A stretch of DNA of 64,000 nucleotides from Fimbriimonadaceae bacterium (GTDB taxonomy: Bacteria > Armatimonadota > Fimbriimonadia > Fimbriimonadales > Fimbriimonadaceae): NCBI GenBank assembly GCA_019454125.1, contig CP075365.1:2412218-2476217 (forward strand). Reading direction: 5' to 3'. Below the pieces are notes generated by a model. The model was not told the origin of the DNA. It saw nothing but the letters and a program-made list of their open reading frames with translations, and searched no databases. Numbering within the stretch: the first letter of the stretch is position 1; each line of letters starts with the position of its first letter. Below are positions 43,790 to 52,144 of this stretch, in pieces. The position numbers and the translations under genes are program-made.

Positions 43790-43793
<4 letters not shown>
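42804..43793 (-). CDS. family 4 glycosyltransferase
   Basis: A 329-residue GT-B enzyme. The C-terminal nucleotide-sugar half has 'VVGAVGRFIPDRGFDSLVRA', 'VPSVRAGFSLVAVEAMSCAV' (the E(x7)E-type motif) and 'RNISGLAAVG'. The N-terminal half is an acceptor domain with no clear signal peptide. It would add a sugar to an envelope or secreted glycan, but the acceptor is unknown. It is the last gene of the long rodA-containing operon and overlaps the moxR gene by four bases. Confidence 0.85.
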
Positions 43794-44737
<944 letters not shown>

Positions 44738-44779: not shown

Positions 44780-45886
44780 CTACTTCATTCCCAGCAGCAG
44801 CCCGACGCAGCCCAGACACATCCACATGGCCGTGCCGCCATAGCTCATGAAGGGCAGCCAGAGCCCCGCGACGGGCAAGATGCCCAGGTTCATGCCGACG
44901 TTCACGATCATGTGAAAGCCGAGCACGCCCAAGATCCCGGCCGCGACGTAACGGTCAAAGGGCTCCGAAGCCCGCCAACCGACCAACCAAGTCCGGAAAA
45001 AGAAGAGGGCGAAGCCAAGGAGGACGAGCGCCGTTCCGAACAAACCGCCCTCCTCCCCGACCACGGTCAGGATGAAGTCGTTCTGCTGTTCCGGCACGTA
45101 CCGCGCCGCCTTCTGCTCGCCTTTCAGGTACCCGACCCCAAAGAGGCCGCCGGTCGCGAAAGCGATCTTCGCGCGCTCTTGCTGCCAAGCGTTGTCCTTG
45201 ACGTCGGGTCGCAGCTTGCCCTCGATGCGGCTCCGCATGTAGTCCGGCATGAGCCCCGGGGTCTTCCACGCCAACCCTAGCCCGGCGAGCAGGACAAGCG
45301 CGCTCAGGAGGATCGGCCGCAAAGAGACGCCGCACGCGAGCAGCATCGCAAACCAGATCATGAGCAACGAGACCGCCCCCGCCAAATGCGGCTGCAAAAG
45401 GGTGAGCAGCACGACCGGGGCGACGTGCAACAACGAGCCGAAGAACGTCGAGGGGTCTTTGATCCGGCCCTGTCGGCCGGAGAGGTACGCCGCGAGCGTG
45501 ATCACGAGCACCAGCTTGGCGAACTCGCTCGGCTGGAACTGGAGCGGCCCGACGTCGATCCAGCGCGTCGCGCCCTTCTTCTCCTGCCCGATGAAGAGCA
45601 CCGCCGCCAGCGAGCCCAAGCTCACGAGGTAGAGCGGCACCGCCGCGCGCTTGAGCATCGCGTGAGGCACGACGGCGAGCCCGAAGGCGATCACACACCC
45701 GACCACGACAAACGCCGCCTGGCGGAAGAAGTAAGCCGAATGGACCGCCGCGTCAATGCTGTGCAGCGAGAGCAGCCCGAACGAAAGGAGCATGCCCGCC
45801 GCAAGGAGGAGGAAAACGTCGGGCCCCTGCGCGGGCCGGTCGAGCCCGGAGCCAAAGACCCCTTTCGCGTCCGCCCGGCCGATCAT
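44780..45886 (-). CDS. rodA: RodA/FtsW/SpoVE-family peptidoglycan polymerase
   Basis: A 368-residue SEDS-family protein with about ten membrane helices. 'KGATRWIDVGPLQFQPSEFA', 'LLQPHLAGAVSLLMIW', 'QNDFILTVVGEEGGLFG' and the closing 'LWLPFMSYGGTAMW' are family hallmarks. It polymerises glycan strands for cell elongation together with a class B PBP, which is not in the window. The SEDS family includes FtsW and SpoVE; RodA is preferred from the overall layout, but FtsW is not excluded. It is coupled to exported proteins upstream (ATGA overlap at 45883-45886). Confidence 0.88.
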   Translation of the reverse strand: MIGRADAKGVFGSGLDRPAQGPDVFLLLAAGMLLSFGLLSLHSIDAAVHSAYFFRQAAFVVVGCVIAFGLAVVPHAMLKRAAVPLYLVSLGSLAAVLFIGQEKKGATRWIDVGPLQFQPSEFAKLVLVITLAAYLSGRQGRIKDPSTFFGSLLHVAPVVLLTLLQPHLAGAVSLLMIWFAMLLACGVSLRPILLSALVLLAGLGLAWKTPGLMPDYMRSRIEGKLRPDVKDNAWQQERAKIAFATGGLFGVGYLKGEQKAARYVPEQQNDFILTVVGEEGGLFGTALVLLGFALFFFRTWLVGWRASEPFDRYVAAGILGVLGFHMIVNVGMNLGILPVAGLWLPFMSYGGTAMWMCLGCVGLLLGMK

Positions 45887-46500
45887 TGACTCTCGGACGG
45901 AGACCGAGGTTCGCGAGTCGTATCGCCGAAAGCGCGCTTGACGACGCCCGACTCAGGAGAGATCCAGAACCGCAATTTCCGTTTCGCGGCGTGGTCGCCA
46001 GTCTCGATGTCCAGGTCGACTTGGATCCGAATCGTGTTGTAGACCCCTGTCGCCAGGTTAAGTCGCTCCGAATCGGTCGAGACCTTTGCTTTCGCGGGCT
46101 TTCTGAGCGGGCCGAGCTCGGCCGTCCCTGACCAATCCCAACTGTCGCCGACCGTGATCGGGAAAATCGCGAGGGGGATGGGGGGCTCGAACGCTTCTCC
46201 GCTCACGCCGACGAACCAAAGCCCCTTTTGGTCGACCTCGTAGTGCTCGGTCTCCAGGTCCTCGCCATGGGCGCGCAGGTGGATGCTCAGATCGCGGCCC
46301 TCGCGGGTGTCGCCCATCTCGACGTCCATCTCCGTGCCGACCAGCACGAGCCGCGCGTCCTTGTACGGAAGTTGCTCCAGCGCCATCGTCTCATAGCGCT
46401 GCCCCTTTTCTTGGGTGCCGACCTGGGCCTGGAGCGCGTTGCACCCCAATGCGCCGACCGCAGCGGCCGCCACCAATGACAATGCCAGTTTCCAGTTCAT
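45883..46500 (-). CDS. exported protein of the rodA operon (FPxxxGxxWxW motif)
   Basis: A 205-residue protein with signal 'MNWKLALSLVAAAAVGALGC', a near-lipobox ending in Cys20. The mature part has a beta-rich domain including 'AIFPITVGDSWDWSGTAELG', a variant of the motif seen in the genes at 46497 and 47863. Function unknown. It overlaps rodA by four bases and its own upstream neighbour by four, so its synthesis is tied to RodA. No close family is recognised; similar 'FPLxxGxxWxY' proteins are often of the TapB/DUF3108-like kind. Confidence 0.72.
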   Translation of the reverse strand: MNWKLALSLVAAAAVGALGCNALQAQVGTQEKGQRYETMALEQLPYKDARLVLVGTEMDVEMGDTREGRDLSIHLRAHGEDLETEHYEVDQKGLWFVGVSGEAFEPPIPLAIFPITVGDSWDWSGTAELGPLRKPAKAKVSTDSERLNLATGVYNTIRIQVDLDIETGDHAAKRKLRFWISPESGVVKRAFGDTTREPRSPSESQ

Positions 46501-47102
46501 GACTCGGCTGGCGTAAAGGAGAGGAGCCTCCGGTGCCTTTCGATCTTCCGCTTCCCGATGGTCTGCGTTTCCTTCAGGTCGTAGAGGCCGACGCCTTTCG
46601 CATAGAGGGCTACTTGTTTCGACTTGATGCTAGTGCCGTCAGGGGGTCCAATGGAAGCTTCGAGCGTCACCTCGAGGATCTCGCGCTTCACGCCCAGAAC
46701 GTCCTGGTCGCGCCCTCGCTTGGACTTGCCCTTGACCGTGAGCGGGGCCGGTGCCCCGTACCACTGCGTCTCGCCGACGTATTCCCAGTTCGCCTTGTCG
46801 CCGACCTTCAGGATCGGATACGGTGCGCCGAGCGGCTTGTTCTGGTCGAAGGCCACCACGTAGACGGTGTCGTCGGTCACCCGGTAGAACGTGCTCCCGT
46901 CGATCTTCCCTTCCACCACGCTGATGATCGGCACCGCCTTGCCGCCCCCGACCTCCTGTACGTTGCCCACGTGGTCGTCGTAACGGCTGGATAGGCTCTG
47001 GCCGCTGTCCTCGTAGACCCACGCGTCCCCCGTTCTCAGCGGGAAGAAATCCGCCGCCTTCACCTGGGGCGCCAGGGCACATGTGAGGACGGCGGCGACC
47101 AT
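46497..47102 (-). CDS. exported protein of the rodA operon (FPLxxGxxWxY motif)
   Basis: A 201-residue protein with a signal peptide 'MVAAVLTCALAPQVKAADFF' and a body that starts 'FFPLRTGDAWVYEDSGQS'. The same opening appears at 47863. ATG 47102 overlaps the stop of the upstream lipoprotein by one base (TGATG). The longer frame to 47210 would extend into the neighbouring gene and lacks a signal. The domain resembles a small beta-barrel, but no ligand can be named. Confidence 0.7.
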   Translation of the reverse strand: MVAAVLTCALAPQVKAADFFPLRTGDAWVYEDSGQSLSSRYDDHVGNVQEVGGGKAVPIISVVEGKIDGSTFYRVTDDTVYVVAFDQNKPLGAPYPILKVGDKANWEYVGETQWYGAPAPLTVKGKSKRGRDQDVLGVKREILEVTLEASIGPPDGTSIKSKQVALYAKGVGLYDLKETQTIGKRKIERHRRLLSFTPAES

Positions 47103-47866
47103 CAGCCTCTGGGGTCCTCCGCAAGCTCGATCGTGGAAGCCACGACCTTGCCTTTGTCGTCCTTGAGCTCCATGCGCATCCTGACGACGCCGATGTCCTT
47201 GGCGTACCACGTCTTGCTGGAGACGTTGCCCTTGGTTCCGGCGTTGTTCATGTCCAATGTCTGGACGACGACCAGCGTGTCGAACTCCTTTCCGGCCGCC
47301 TTCACCTTGCCTCCGTCCTCGACCTTCGAGGTTCCCGTGAACTGGATTTTGCGGTCGTCGGCGGCAGTCGCCAGTTCGTACTTGTCGGACCAGGTGTCGC
47401 CGGGCTTCAGGTTCGCGGGCATCACCATGACCGGCTTCTCAGGCTTGCCCAGCGACGAACTCACGAGGTAGACGCCGTCCTTGTGGACCTCCATCTCCTC
47501 CGTCCCTAGGTTGCTGATCGAGCCGTCCCGGCTCACACTGAAGGTGGCCACGCCGTCCTTCATCCCCTTGAAGGTGGTCGTCTGGGTCCCCGCCTCGGGC
47601 TTCTCACCCTCGACGCGCGCGAAGAGGTACTTCTCCGGCTTCTGCACGGAAAGACCGGAGTACGCGTAGGCGTCGTGCTTCAGCTCCTCCGGGATGGCGG
47701 AGACGTCCGGGGTCGCCGTTTCCGTGCCACTGGTCGTGCCGGCGGCGCCGGACGTGCTCTCGGTCTTCGGCTCGGCGCCGGTCGCGATCCCCGTGTCGTC
47801 CTTCGGAGCGCAGCCCGCCAGAGAGGCGGCCAGCAAAAGGAGGGCGGTATAGCGCGGGAACGTCAT
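47102..47866 (-). CDS. lipoprotein of the rodA operon
   Basis: A 254-residue lipoprotein. 'MTFPRYTALLLLAASLAGC' ends in a lipobox, then a Thr/Ser/Ala-rich spacer and a beta-rich domain with 'MPANLKPGDTWSDKYELATA' and 'SKTWYAKDIGVVRMRMELKD'. The latter closely resembles 'TTYWAKDVGMVRFRQEVVA' in the next gene, so the two are likely related. It overlaps both neighbours by one to four bases. Function unknown. Confidence 0.72.
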   Translation of the reverse strand: MTFPRYTALLLLAASLAGCAPKDDTGIATGAEPKTESTSGAAGTTSGTETATPDVSAIPEELKHDAYAYSGLSVQKPEKYLFARVEGEKPEAGTQTTTFKGMKDGVATFSVSRDGSISNLGTEEMEVHKDGVYLVSSSLGKPEKPVMVMPANLKPGDTWSDKYELATAADDRKIQFTGTSKVEDGGKVKAAGKEFDTLVVVQTLDMNNAGTKGNVSSKTWYAKDIGVVRMRMELKDDKGKVVASTIELAEDPRG

Positions 47867-48627
47867 TGGGTATAGCTCTTGAGGCGGAGGACGCTCGTCT
47901 GACTAATCTGACGTCCGTCGGAGTTCATCGCAACGACTTCTTGGCGGAAACGCACCATTCCGACATCTTTGGCCCAGTAAGTGGTGGAGGAGGACCGGAA
48001 CTTCACGTTGTTCTCCTGGTAGGAGGACTCCGTTTCGGTGGCCAGGGCCTGCATGCGGCCCATCGCCGTATCGACCTCCTGCACGCCGCGGGTCGAGTTC
48101 TCCATGTTGAGCGGGCCAGGGGTCGCGGCCGGGCGGATGCCCGTCACCGCCATCTTCAGCGATTCGCGCTCCTTCACGGGGAAGCCGATGATGCGGACCG
48201 GCGGGTTGTAGGGCACTTCCGTCAACGGCCCCTCCATCGTCTTGCGGACCGACCCTGTCAGCTGGTAGATGCCCTTGTCGCTGACGCGCCAGTTGAGCCG
48301 GTCGGTGATCTTGCCTTCGCTGACCACTTCGATCGTCACGACCTTCCCGTCCGCCGTATCCTTGATACTTGCGATCTGGAACGTGACCTCGGACTTAGAA
48401 GTGTTCGACCCATTGGGCGTGGTCTGAACGCCTTCCGCCTCATAGACCCACCGGTTGCCGACCTTCAAGGGAAAGAGCTTGGGCCCGTCTCCTGGGGAGA
48501 GCGCCATCTCTTGGACGGGTTGCTTTTCCTGCGGCTTGTAACTGGAAGACTTGCCGGAGGAACCGCAACCTCCCATAACGACGAGCGAGACCGCAAGGGC
48601 GGCCAGGGGCTTAGTGAGTCCGTTCAT
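47863..48627 (-). CDS. lipoprotein of the rodA operon (FPLxxGxxWxY motif)
   Basis: A 254-residue lipoprotein with signal 'KPLAALAVSLVVMGGC'. The mature part begins with a disordered basic stretch and then 'LFPLKVGNRWVYEAEGVQTT', the motif shared with 46497, followed by 'TYWAKDVGMVRFRQEVVAMN'. It overlaps the upstream SecD-P1-like gene by four bases. Envelope location is certain from the signal; its biochemical role is not. Confidence 0.72.
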   Translation of the reverse strand: MNGLTKPLAALAVSLVVMGGCGSSGKSSSYKPQEKQPVQEMALSPGDGPKLFPLKVGNRWVYEAEGVQTTPNGSNTSKSEVTFQIASIKDTADGKVVTIEVVSEGKITDRLNWRVSDKGIYQLTGSVRKTMEGPLTEVPYNPPVRIIGFPVKERESLKMAVTGIRPAATPGPLNMENSTRGVQEVDTAMGRMQALATETESSYQENNVKFRSSSTTYWAKDVGMVRFRQEVVAMNSDGRQISQTSVLRLKSYTQ

Positions 48628-49763
48628 TTCGATCTTGATCCCGATTGAATGTCGTTAATAAGTTTGACAGCCTCGTCCGCTAACGACTCGGACGCGACTC
48701 TTTTTATGGTCACTTCGGTTCCGCTTAGGTCACTCTTGATGCGTGGGGCCGCGATCGCGACGCCCTCCATCGTCATCAAGAGCTGGAAGTTCGGGTGGTC
48801 CAGACTGTACTTCCAGAGCCTCTTCCGGCCCTCTGAGTTCAACTGGACGGTGATGTCCGAGAGCGGCTCCTTTCGGGGCCCGTCGTATTTGGAGTAGGTG
48901 GCACCCGTCATGTAGGCGTCACTAAGGATGACGGTCGCATGCCCCAAGATCGCCTCAACCTTCTTGGCATAGGCCTGGAGGCGGGACGGTTCGATCCGGG
49001 AGCGGAGGTTCTCCGCGACGTCCTCCGGCTTTTGGCCCGAGGCGATCTTTTCGAAGACGAGGTTGGCCTGGTCGCGGTACGTGCCGACGATCACGGCCTG
49101 GCTCGGGTTGAACTTGTCCATGATCTTGCTCTCGACCGTCGAGGCGAAGAGCGTCTTGTAAGGCTCCTGGATCCGGCACGTGATCTTCTGCACCTTGCCC
49201 TCGACGGGGACGTTCACTGTGACGGGACTGTCCACCACGATGCCGCTCAGGAGGGAGTTTAGGTTGAGTGTCTTGAGGGGGGTGCCGTCGAGGTTCGTGT
49301 GGAGGTCGCCCACTAACTTCGCCCGCAGGGTCGCATCGCCGTCCAGAGCTTTGCCGATATCCTCAGCGGTCCAAGTCACCGGCACCGGAGGCAGGTCGTC
49401 CTCCAGCTTGTTCACGCTCATGGTGAGCTTGCCGAGTGCCTCCGCGTCGCCCTGAAGGGCCTTCAAGGTCTCGCGGATCGGAAGGCGGGGAGCGCTGGCC
49501 GCGTCCTTCTCGTCGCTGGGCGACTCGAACCCTCCGACCGCCCCGTCCCGGCGGACCTCCGCCAAGTGGGCGATCCCGTTGCTCACGATGATCCGGTATC
49601 CGGCCTCCTTCGGCACCGCGATCAGGTTCACCCGGCCCGGCTTTATCGGCTCGGGGTTAAAGCCTGCCAAAGTGACGGCCGCATAGACCCGGGGGCCGGC
49701 GACGGCTATCCCGAGCGCTAACGCGCCAATGGCGGCAACTACGTAGCTTGGACGCAATTTCAT
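48624..49763 (-). CDS. SecD-P1-like extracytoplasmic protein
   Basis: A 379-residue protein with an N-terminal signal or anchor helix ('YVVAAIGALALGIAVAG'). Its last 75 residues ('DITVQLNSEGRKRLWKYSLD', 'TMEGVAIAAPRIKS', 'LADEAVKLIN') closely follow the P1 head of SecD/SecDF, where the family has 'VxLxLxxxGxxxF', 'xLDxxVxSAP' and 'xxEAxxLA'. But no six-helix transporter core is present. The middle (about 60-300) is helical and unassigned. It would sit outside the membrane; a role in helping exported proteins fold or leave Sec is an inference. It heads the eight-gene operon. Confidence 0.6.
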   Translation of the reverse strand: MKLRPSYVVAAIGALALGIAVAGPRVYAAVTLAGFNPEPIKPGRVNLIAVPKEAGYRIIVSNGIAHLAEVRRDGAVGGFESPSDEKDAASAPRLPIRETLKALQGDAEALGKLTMSVNKLEDDLPPVPVTWTAEDIGKALDGDATLRAKLVGDLHTNLDGTPLKTLNLNSLLSGIVVDSPVTVNVPVEGKVQKITCRIQEPYKTLFASTVESKIMDKFNPSQAVIVGTYRDQANLVFEKIASGQKPEDVAENLRSRIEPSRLQAYAKKVEAILGHATVILSDAYMTGATYSKYDGPRKEPLSDITVQLNSEGRKRLWKYSLDHPNFQLLMTMEGVAIAAPRIKSDLSGTEVTIKRVASESLADEAVKLINDIQSGSRSK

Positions 49764-49878
49764 AGGGGCTCGAGAGCCGCGCGGTTAATTCGAACAGATT
49801 ACCGGTATCGATGGTTCCAATTGCGACGGTTCTGACTCAAGCTTTACCCGAGGTGGGTCGAACGAAGGGGTACCATCC

Positions 49879-49900
49879 AGACGCCCACGGATGGGCGTCT
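49879..49900. promoter_or_regulatory. leader hairpin before ftsK
   Basis: Perfect 9-base arms AGACGCCCA (49879-49887) and TGGGCGTCT (49892-49900) around CGGA, 16 bases before the ftsK ATG and followed by TATTA. It could attenuate or terminate; if ftsK used a start at 49811 it would lie inside the gene. Confidence 0.45.
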
Positions 49901-49915
49901 TATTACTGGAGCAGG

Positions 49916-52144
49916 ATGCGGGGAACGGCCAGAACTCCCACTGCCACGCGTTCAAAGAGCGTGGCCCAACCGGTCGGCCATCGGACGAGCGATGCCCTGG
50001 GTGTGATCTTTATCGCCCTCGCCATCGTCCTGATCGCAGGCCTTGCCCTCCGTAACGGCGGCCTCGTCGGCGATGGGCTGACCTCGCTGTTGCAGACCCT
50101 CGTCGGGCGCGGCGCCTGGGTCGTGCCGGTTGTGCTCGGCTTCGCCGGCCTGAGTCTGCTTGCGGGCCGGACCGACGTCCAAGTCGGACGGGTCACGGTC
50201 GGCACCCTGCTGATCTTCGCCTGCACGGTCGGATTCTTCGCCCAGCCGCTCAAGGGCGACTACTTCGACCCCGCCGTGCTGACCCAGACCGGCGGCTACG
50301 CCGGGGCCGTCTTCGCCTGGCTCTTCGGCACCCTGCTCGGCGCGGCCAAACCGGTCGGCTTGGTCGCGATGGGCTTGGTGGGGCTCGTCCTCTGCCTGGA
50401 CGCGCCTTTGCACCAGATCCTCTCGCGGACCGCGGAGCAGGGCCGGAGGAAGCGCGTCGAAGCCCGCGTGCAAGAGGCGACCGCCCGACCCATCAAGAAG
50501 GCCGTCGTCGCCCTGCCCGAGTTCGACGACTCCCCTGAACAGGAGGTCCCAGGCGCCGCCGAACCGATCGCTACCCCCGAGTCCGTGCCCAATGTGATGC
50601 GGCCCAAGGCCGCCCCGAAGGTGACCTATGCCGCCGACCGGGTCGAAACGGTGCAACTGAACACGGAGACGCCCCGTCAGGGCTACGACCTGCCTCCCCT
50701 CGACCTCCTTGCCCCGCCGCCGGCAAAGTCCAAGCGCAGCAAGGAGGAGATGGAGCGGCACATCCAGACGCTCGAAGGCACTCTGGAGCAGTTCAAGATC
50801 GAGGCGAACGTCGTCGAAGTGGCCACCGGCCCCACCATCACCCGTTATGAGCTCCAGCTCGGGCCGGGCATCCCCGTCCGCCGCATCACCAACCTCGCGG
50901 ACAACATCGCGATGAACCTGGCCGCCTCCCACGTGCGGGTCGAAGCCCCCATACCCGGCAAGGCGGCCATCGGCGTCGAAGTGCCGAATGCGCACCGTTC
51001 GATGGTGACCCTCAGCGAGATGGTCGAGAGCCCGGAGTTTCACTCACCCGACAACAAGCTTTGCCTCGCGCTGGGCAAGGATGTCAGCGGCGTGAGCCGG
51101 TACACCGACCTCACCCGCATGCCGCACATGCTGATCGGTGGCGCGACCAACAGCGGCAAATCGATCTGCCTGGCCACGATCATCATGTCGCTCATCATCC
51201 GCCACACCCCGAAGGAAGTGCGCCTGGTGATGGTCGACCCAAAGCGCGTGGAGCTGACCTTCTTCGAGGGCCTGCCTCACCTCATGTGCCCGGTCGTGAA
51301 GGACGTAAAGGAGGCCCCTGGCGTGCTCCGGGCTGTGGTCCGGGAGATGGACCGCCGCTATGACCGCTTCAGCGAAGCGGGCGTCCGCAACATCGACGGT
51401 TGGAACGCCAAGGCGGACCCCGAGGACAAGCTCAGCTATATCGTCGTCATCGTCGACGAGCTGGCCGACCTCATGATCCAGGCCGCCGCCGAAGTCGAGA
51501 CCAGCATCTGCCGCCTCGCCCAGCTGGCGCGCGCGACGGGCATCCACCTGGTCATCGCCACCCAGCGCCCGAGCGTCGACGTCATCACCGGCACGATCAA
51601 GAACAACATCTCGTCCCGGACCGCATTCGCCGTCTCCTCCCAAATCGACTCGCGCACGATCCTCGACCAAGCCGGTGCGGAGAAACTCATTGGCAAGGGC
51701 GACATGCTTTTCCTGCCGATCGACCAGACAAAGCCCACCCGCATCCAAGGCTGCTATGTCAGCGAAAAGGAGATCGAGGCGGTCTGCGACTTCTGGCGGG
51801 CCCAGGAGAAGCCGCACTACGTGCTGAACCCGGTGCAGATCGCCATCGAAGAGCGAGAGAGCGAGATGCGGGAGGCCCAAGACGCCGACCCCTTCTGGGA
51901 AGAAGCCGTCCGATGGGTGGTCGAGCGGGGCGAAGCCTCGACCTCGATGCTCCAGCGCAAGTTCTCCATCGGGTTCCAGCGGGCCTCGCGTCTGCTGGAC
52001 GCAATGGAGGAACAGGGCATCGTCGGCAAGCGCGACGGCCCTCGCCCGCGACAAGTCCTCGTCGACCCGATGCAGGTCGAAGTCATCCTCGGGAACCAGG
52101 AGTACATGACCCCGGTCCCCGATGGCGAGACTATCGACGACTAA
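49916..52144 (+). CDS. ftsK: FtsK/SpoIIIE DNA translocase
   Basis: A 742-residue membrane DNA pump that clears chromosome termini at division. The N-terminus has four hydrophobic helices (about residues 25-160), then a proline-rich linker. The motor has Walker A 'GATNSGKSICLATIIMSL' and Walker B 'VVIVDELADLM'. The C-terminal gamma winged-helix ('EEAVRWVVERGEASTSMLQR' onward) reads DNA polarity (KOPS). ATG 49916 has GGAG four bases upstream, better than the in-frame ATG at 49811. It lies divergent from the SecD-P1-like gene and its end overlaps the PPOX gene by four bases. Confidence 0.95.
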   Translation: MRGTARTPTATRSKSVAQPVGHRTSDALGVIFIALAIVLIAGLALRNGGLVGDGLTSLLQTLVGRGAWVVPVVLGFAGLSLLAGRTDVQVGRVTVGTLLIFACTVGFFAQPLKGDYFDPAVLTQTGGYAGAVFAWLFGTLLGAAKPVGLVAMGLVGLVLCLDAPLHQILSRTAEQGRRKRVEARVQEATARPIKKAVVALPEFDDSPEQEVPGAAEPIATPESVPNVMRPKAAPKVTYAADRVETVQLNTETPRQGYDLPPLDLLAPPPAKSKRSKEEMERHIQTLEGTLEQFKIEANVVEVATGPTITRYELQLGPGIPVRRITNLADNIAMNLAASHVRVEAPIPGKAAIGVEVPNAHRSMVTLSEMVESPEFHSPDNKLCLALGKDVSGVSRYTDLTRMPHMLIGGATNSGKSICLATIIMSLIIRHTPKEVRLVMVDPKRVELTFFEGLPHLMCPVVKDVKEAPGVLRAVVREMDRRYDRFSEAGVRNIDGWNAKADPEDKLSYIVVIVDELADLMIQAAAEVETSICRLAQLARATGIHLVIATQRPSVDVITGTIKNNISSRTAFAVSSQIDSRTILDQAGAEKLIGKGDMLFLPIDQTKPTRIQGCYVSEKEIEAVCDFWRAQEKPHYVLNPVQIAIEERESEMREAQDADPFWEEAVRWVVERGEASTSMLQRKFSIGFQRASRLLDAMEEQGIVGKRDGPRPRQVLVDPMQVEVILGNQEYMTPVPDGETIDD

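Follow-up and report, generated by a model that had tools for sequence, protein, structure and literature searches.

Within SecDF, it is hard to tell how much is owed to capture of the chain by the P1 head and how much to the proton-driven core actively pulling it. A gene in the window (the 64,000-nucleotide stretch of Fimbriimonadaceae DNA analysed here) raises the question of whether a P1-type domain can stand apart from the SecD transporter and, if so, what it might do there. A first-pass annotation had placed such a domain at 48624-49763, in a protein with a single N-terminal anchor and no six-helix core, and had suggested that it could act as a late export or folding helper. According to its structural model, the product is an inner-membrane-anchored periplasmic protein that combines the SecD P1-head fold with a domain inserted into that head. 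In Fimbriimonadaceae, the part of the SecD export machine that is presumed to grip its substrates appears to have been put to new use with no motor attached. The insert, the link to RodA, the near-universal conservation within one order and the insert-less relatives across the phylum all go beyond the earlier annotation. A natural head that lacks both core and base, and that almost all genomes of an order have kept, would allow a direct test of pulling versus capture. Additionally, the insert, should it prove to be a new fold, and the conserved operon, in which RodA accompanies four related envelope proteins, offer an entry to the poorly studied envelope of Armatimonadota.

Domain identity of the predicted protein

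The coordinates of the gene proved correct and place it on the minus strand, with an ATG at 49763, a stop at 48624 and a product of 379 amino acids. The host genome is a single contig of 2.65 Mb. Scanning genome contigs with the single protein returned no relatives; an alignment scan found them, and the DNA relatives of the window are Fimbriimonadaceae and other Armatimonadota bins. One record, a bin labelled Methanoregulaceae archaeon SJ84 (L119), carries the Fimbriimonadaceae cluster and is probably mislabelled. There were no relatives among viral contigs and plasmids, and thus no sign of a mobile element.

Pfam PF22599 (SecDF_P1_head) matches residues 270-364 of the window copy at E=3.1e-4 and 21 bits, which is below the curated gathering cut-off of 27 bits, and it is the sole Pfam family found at E<=1. 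The same family is matched independently by 31 of 36 orthologues at E<=0.1 (best 4.6e-9), and some orthologues score above the cut-off (37.0, 32.2, 29.2 and 27.5 bits). The NCBIfam model TIGR01129 (secD) matches residues 231-374 at E=9.3e-5, with 21.7 bits against a cut-off of 244.4 bits. A profile search against SecDF P1, the check named in the first-pass annotation, bore out the likeness: comparison of the family with 19 SecDF P1 regions of the phylum gave a probability of 94.8% (E=5e-8), as against 0.4% for a control with the reversed profile. Profiles of S1 and S2, the two genes that follow, gave 0.1% and 0.2% with the SecDF P1 profile. The 19-sequence SecDF profile was needed for this signal, as hhalign against just the one SecDF sequence of this genome reached 0.8%, which is not significant. 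A weak match of 12 bits within the genome itself was taken as chance. In a sequence search of the PDB, SecDF P1 ranked first, at E=0.07 only.

The AlphaFold2 model of the whole protein (pLDDT 91.6, pTM 0.85) points the same way. The best eight PDB matches found by Foldseek are all SecDF (best E=6.8e-6), and VIA gave Z=10.3 against SecDF over 117-133 residues, compared with 5.9 and below for unrelated structures. The superposition covers 118 residues at 2.9 Å or 133 at 4.7 Å, with 8-16% identity to SecD in the structural alignment. The head fold is common to the orphan and the SecD/SecDF proteins of T. thermophilus (3AQO, 3AQP, 5YHF) and D. radiodurans (5XAP, 5XAN) as well as PF22599, and the orphan pattern LT.EG..RLW.YS ... 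vDGvaIAAPrI corresponds to F..eG..kF..fTr..vG..LAIvLDg.v.sAPvI in SecD/SecDF. As judged from profiles and the predicted structure, the resemblance to SecD P1 is real and the domain is the P1 head.

The predicted head is made of two halves separated by a domain of its own (residues about 90-276). Its first strands, residues 43-71 (49551-49637, minus strand), were placed by VIA and by the modelled strands 45-50, 56-61 and 64-69, and form the most conserved stretch of the protein. The C-terminal part, residues 277-374 (48642-48935, minus strand), is the one recognised by PF22599, TIGR01129, Foldseek and VIA. The P1-head pattern earlier assigned to the last 75 residues is thus a true likeness, but the head is larger than that and also uses residues 43-71.

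The N-terminal anchor spans residues 5-31 in the model (49671-49751, minus strand) and contains the only hydrophobic window of the protein (8-26), compared with 12 in the genome's own normal SecDF, which is encoded elsewhere. Hydropathy of the anchor falls below the threshold used in 14 of 36 orthologues. The alignment contains no conserved cleavage site or lipobox, and the anchor is probably left uncleaved. Beyond the anchor, the AlphaFold2 model has no long hydrophobic helix, and the six-helix transporter core is absent. The annotation was therefore right in describing one anchor, no core and a stand-alone P1-type domain outside a SecD transporter.

The P1 base, which had been expected to superpose together with the head, did not. 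VIA aligned residues 43-372 of the model with SecDF 111-248 only (T. thermophilus numbering) and with nothing earlier; going by published domain borders, this segment is presumably the P1 head. In the model, 13 residues lie between the anchor helix, which ends at 31, and the first head strand at 45, and 5 residues lie beyond the last head helix, so that the base cannot fit. The protein sequence does not contain a GLDxxGG motif. An hhalign path through the insert that suggested a base was of low confidence, was contradicted by the AlphaFold2 model and was rejected. Without a base, and with a single hydrophobic segment, the protein is not a SecD. Unlike SecD/SecDF, it has neither the P1 base nor the six-helix core nor a SecF half, and it has one anchor, a large insert and an operon of its own.

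The inserted domain and its distribution

The insert of ~187 residues (90-276; 48936-49496, minus strand) splits the head between strand 64-69 and strand 277-281. Modelled alone by AlphaFold2, residues 90-276 are predicted to fold by themselves (pLDDT 96.4, pTM 0.89). No structural match was found in the PDB (Foldseek best E=0.06; VIA best Z 3.2), and there were no relatives by sequence in Pfam or the PDB. The insert is possibly a new fold, which absence of a match does not prove. Only three columns are invariant across the family (W131, L150 and G160), and all lie within it.

By profile search, the P1-head family occurs in 106 of 113 genomes of Fimbriimonadales and in 86 of the 88 well-assembled ones, and almost all genomes of the order carry just one copy of the gene. 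The insert is present in 88 of 291 genomes of the phylum, solely within the P1-head gene, and the genomes that bear it all belong to families f1, f3 and f5 of one order. S1 accompanies it in 87 of these 88 genomes, the exception (G022) being 72% complete. Conversely, S1 was found without the insert in two genomes, G052 (86% complete) and G039 (a weak S1 match). In family f2, the head is kept while the insert and S1 were both undetected, and in the reduced genomes G029 and G230 the P1-head gene, S1 and S2 were all undetected. The association between insert and S1 is strong, but it comprises few independent events (one family split and one loss).

Head proteins lacking the insert are found in f2 (about 245-280 residues) and as anchor-plus-head proteins of 210-350 residues in f8, f12, f28, f37 and other families of the phylum. 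They belong to the same family by profile (hhalign 99.9%) and share the single N-terminal anchor and the P1 head. In those of other families, nothing homologous to the insert is present (f12 carries a different sequence at this place), and their gene neighbourhoods differ from the Fimbriimonadales operon. Compared with SecDF P1, 27 insert-less proteins gave 98.1% (E=1e-13), again for the head only (template 123-232 of 252).

The operon with S1-S4 and RodA

The P1-head gene is the first of six genes on the minus strand (P1-head, S1, S2, S3, S4 and RodA) in which the start overlaps the preceding stop at every junction in the window. The four secreted proteins noted previously do follow it, in a conserved operon. 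S1 (47863-48627) is a putative lipoprotein and DUF3108-like paralogue whose start forms an ATGA overlap with the P1-head gene; S2 (47102-47866) is a putative DUF3108-like lipoprotein (DUF3108_like, E=1.3e-5) joined to S1 by a further ATGA. S3 (46497-47102), also a DUF3108-like paralogue, is secreted and lacks a lipobox Cys; its ATG overlaps the S2 stop (TGATG). ATGA overlaps also link S4 (45883-46500), another putative lipoprotein and DUF3108-like paralogue, to S3, and the RodA/FtsW-family gene (44780-45886; PF01098, E=1.4e-71) to S4. Downstream on the same strand is a MoxR-type AAA ATPase (43790-44737), which is near the cluster in many relatives. An FtsK-type translocase (49811-52144, plus strand) is divergent here and lies downstream of RodA in several relatives.

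S1-S4 are mutually paralogous (hhalign 98-99.5%; S3 to S1 99.5%). The S2 profile matches the PDB structures 4fvs (E=5e-7) and 3fzx (E=3e-6), exported proteins of the DUF3108/DUF3108_like type, and the S1 profile matches them weakly; scores stay below the Pfam cut-offs for DUF3108/DUF3108_like (S2, 25.6 bits vs 27; S4, 15.6 vs 26). Unlike 4fvs and 3fzx, S1-S4 form a set of four paralogues that share their operon with a P1 head and RodA. A lipobox-like Cys is present in S1, S2 and S4 and absent from S3. Because some Armatimonadota have been argued to be diderm (PMC5629042), S1, S2 and S4 might be destined for the inner or the outer membrane.

Of the 66 loci examined, a redundant set in which some genomes appear twice, 65 have an S gene directly after the P1-head gene and on its strand. 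RodA comes after the S genes in most of the 66, and FtsK then follows in some. Family f5 departs from this order: there, MoxR takes the place after the S genes, or the stretch read contains no RodA behind them.

Proposed function and alternatives

The P1 head of SecD has been described as its substrate-binding part, which moves with proton flow (PMC7793623, PMC11470409). In E. coli it contacts the membrane-anchored PpiD (PMC7793623), and SurA is predicted to dock on it (PMC9987972). The substrate binding described for the SecD head makes the late export or folding helper suggested in the first-pass annotation plausible. Since the head is tethered by a single helix and has no core, proton current cannot drive it, and a passive factor is the simplest reading. 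The insert and the operon together point to S1-S4 as its clients or partners, and the presence of RodA hints that it acts in wall growth.

We favour, while placing it a little short of an even chance, an account in which the anchored head with its insert binds exported chains unpowered and is dedicated to S1-S4 near RodA. The head would still bind extended exported polypeptides, as in SecD, on the periplasmic side of the inner membrane; lacking a motor, it would hold chains or hand them over rather than pull them. The insert may adapt the head to the co-encoded DUF3108-like S1-S4 as clients or partners, and the protein would assist these in being released, in folding or in joining an envelope complex at work close to the wall-synthesis machinery of RodA. 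No known fold could be recognised in the insert, which leaves its role a guess, and insert-less relatives with unrelated neighbours elsewhere in the phylum indicate that the head fold as such has no fixed tie to S1-S4. The fuller claim, that Fimbriimonadales have a motor-free dedicated export/assembly factor made from a SecD P1 head and a possibly new-fold insert and serving a RodA-coupled quartet, we hold to be rather doubtful.

In this favoured account, the orphan would work much like PpiD/YfgM, the membrane-anchored periplasmic chaperone at the translocon, which is a one-anchor, unpowered protein that catches emerging chains near the P1 head of SecD. No parvulin domain or other sequence link to PpiD/YfgM was found in the orphan (a Pfam search of 36 members at E<=0.1 gave neither a parvulin nor a SurA N-terminal family), and the likeness is an analogy only.

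Alternatively, the protein may be a cell-wall scaffold: instead of binding exported chains, it would use its head and insert to dock S1-S4 around RodA (and FtsK) in the elongation/division machinery. RodA being next after the S genes in most relatives, with FtsK then in many, is consistent with docking, as is the position of the family's sole invariant residues, W131, L150 and G160, in the insert. We nevertheless consider a scaffold unlikely, since chain binding has been described for this fold in SecD, family f2 keeps the head without the S1-S4/RodA neighbourhood, and MoxR, or no RodA within the stretch read, follows the S genes in f5.

Somewhat less probable again is a general Sec accessory, stationed next to SecYEG/SecDF where chains leave the translocon, as PpiD is, and serving many clients, with the operon only setting expression. 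The unrelated neighbours of the forms in other families would fit such a general role, as would the contact of the SecD P1 head with PpiD in E. coli (PMC7793623) and the low PF22599 scores of the canonical SecDF head in Fimbriimonadaceae (33-62 vs about 64-114 bits). Against it, the insert form is coupled strongly and nearly exclusively to S1-S4, and in the two reduced genomes neither the P1-head gene nor S1 and S2 were detected. Finally, that the protein is a decayed SecD fragment with a now unrelated structural or ligand-binding role would suit its low identity to SecD (8-16% in structural alignment) and its missing base and core, but is improbable for a single-copy gene that all but two of the 88 well-assembled Fimbriimonadales genomes carry and in which the SecD-head-equivalent motif EGR.RLW.YS ... 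DGVAIAAPRI is among the most conserved regions.

Against the favoured chain-binding account, P1-head folds could instead serve as a plain module for protein-protein interaction. Literature searches found no papers on a SecDF P1 head that stands alone as a protein. While the domain itself is familiar, the split head with its unmatched insert, the lack of base and core, and the operon appear to be undescribed in the searchable literature. Databases label other stand-alone proteins as SecDF P1 head subdomain-containing.

Several further observations concern P1 heads elsewhere in the phylum. On canonical SecDF heads, PF22599 scores much lower in Fimbriimonadaceae, at 33-62 bits, than for most of those in other families of the phylum, at about 64-114 bits (L034 1265-3820 is among the SecDF genes scored). 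Family f21 encodes separate lipobox-bearing proteins that seemingly contain base plus head (L091 666-1484, L092 4315-5187 and L093 4200-5090), a stand-alone P1 architecture unlike the head-only form. In f12 and f28 (L074, L077, L084), the head protein lies beside an alanine-glyoxylate-type aminotransferase-like gene, and in f12 a FabI-like gene is also adjacent (both judged by eye). The insert-less head protein of f2 forms a conserved pairing with a neighbouring gene that, judging by a motif, is mqnD-like (menaquinone pathway), at L095 4519-6161, L096 4645-6218, L097 3832-5381, L099 4896-6457 and L100 3879-5461.
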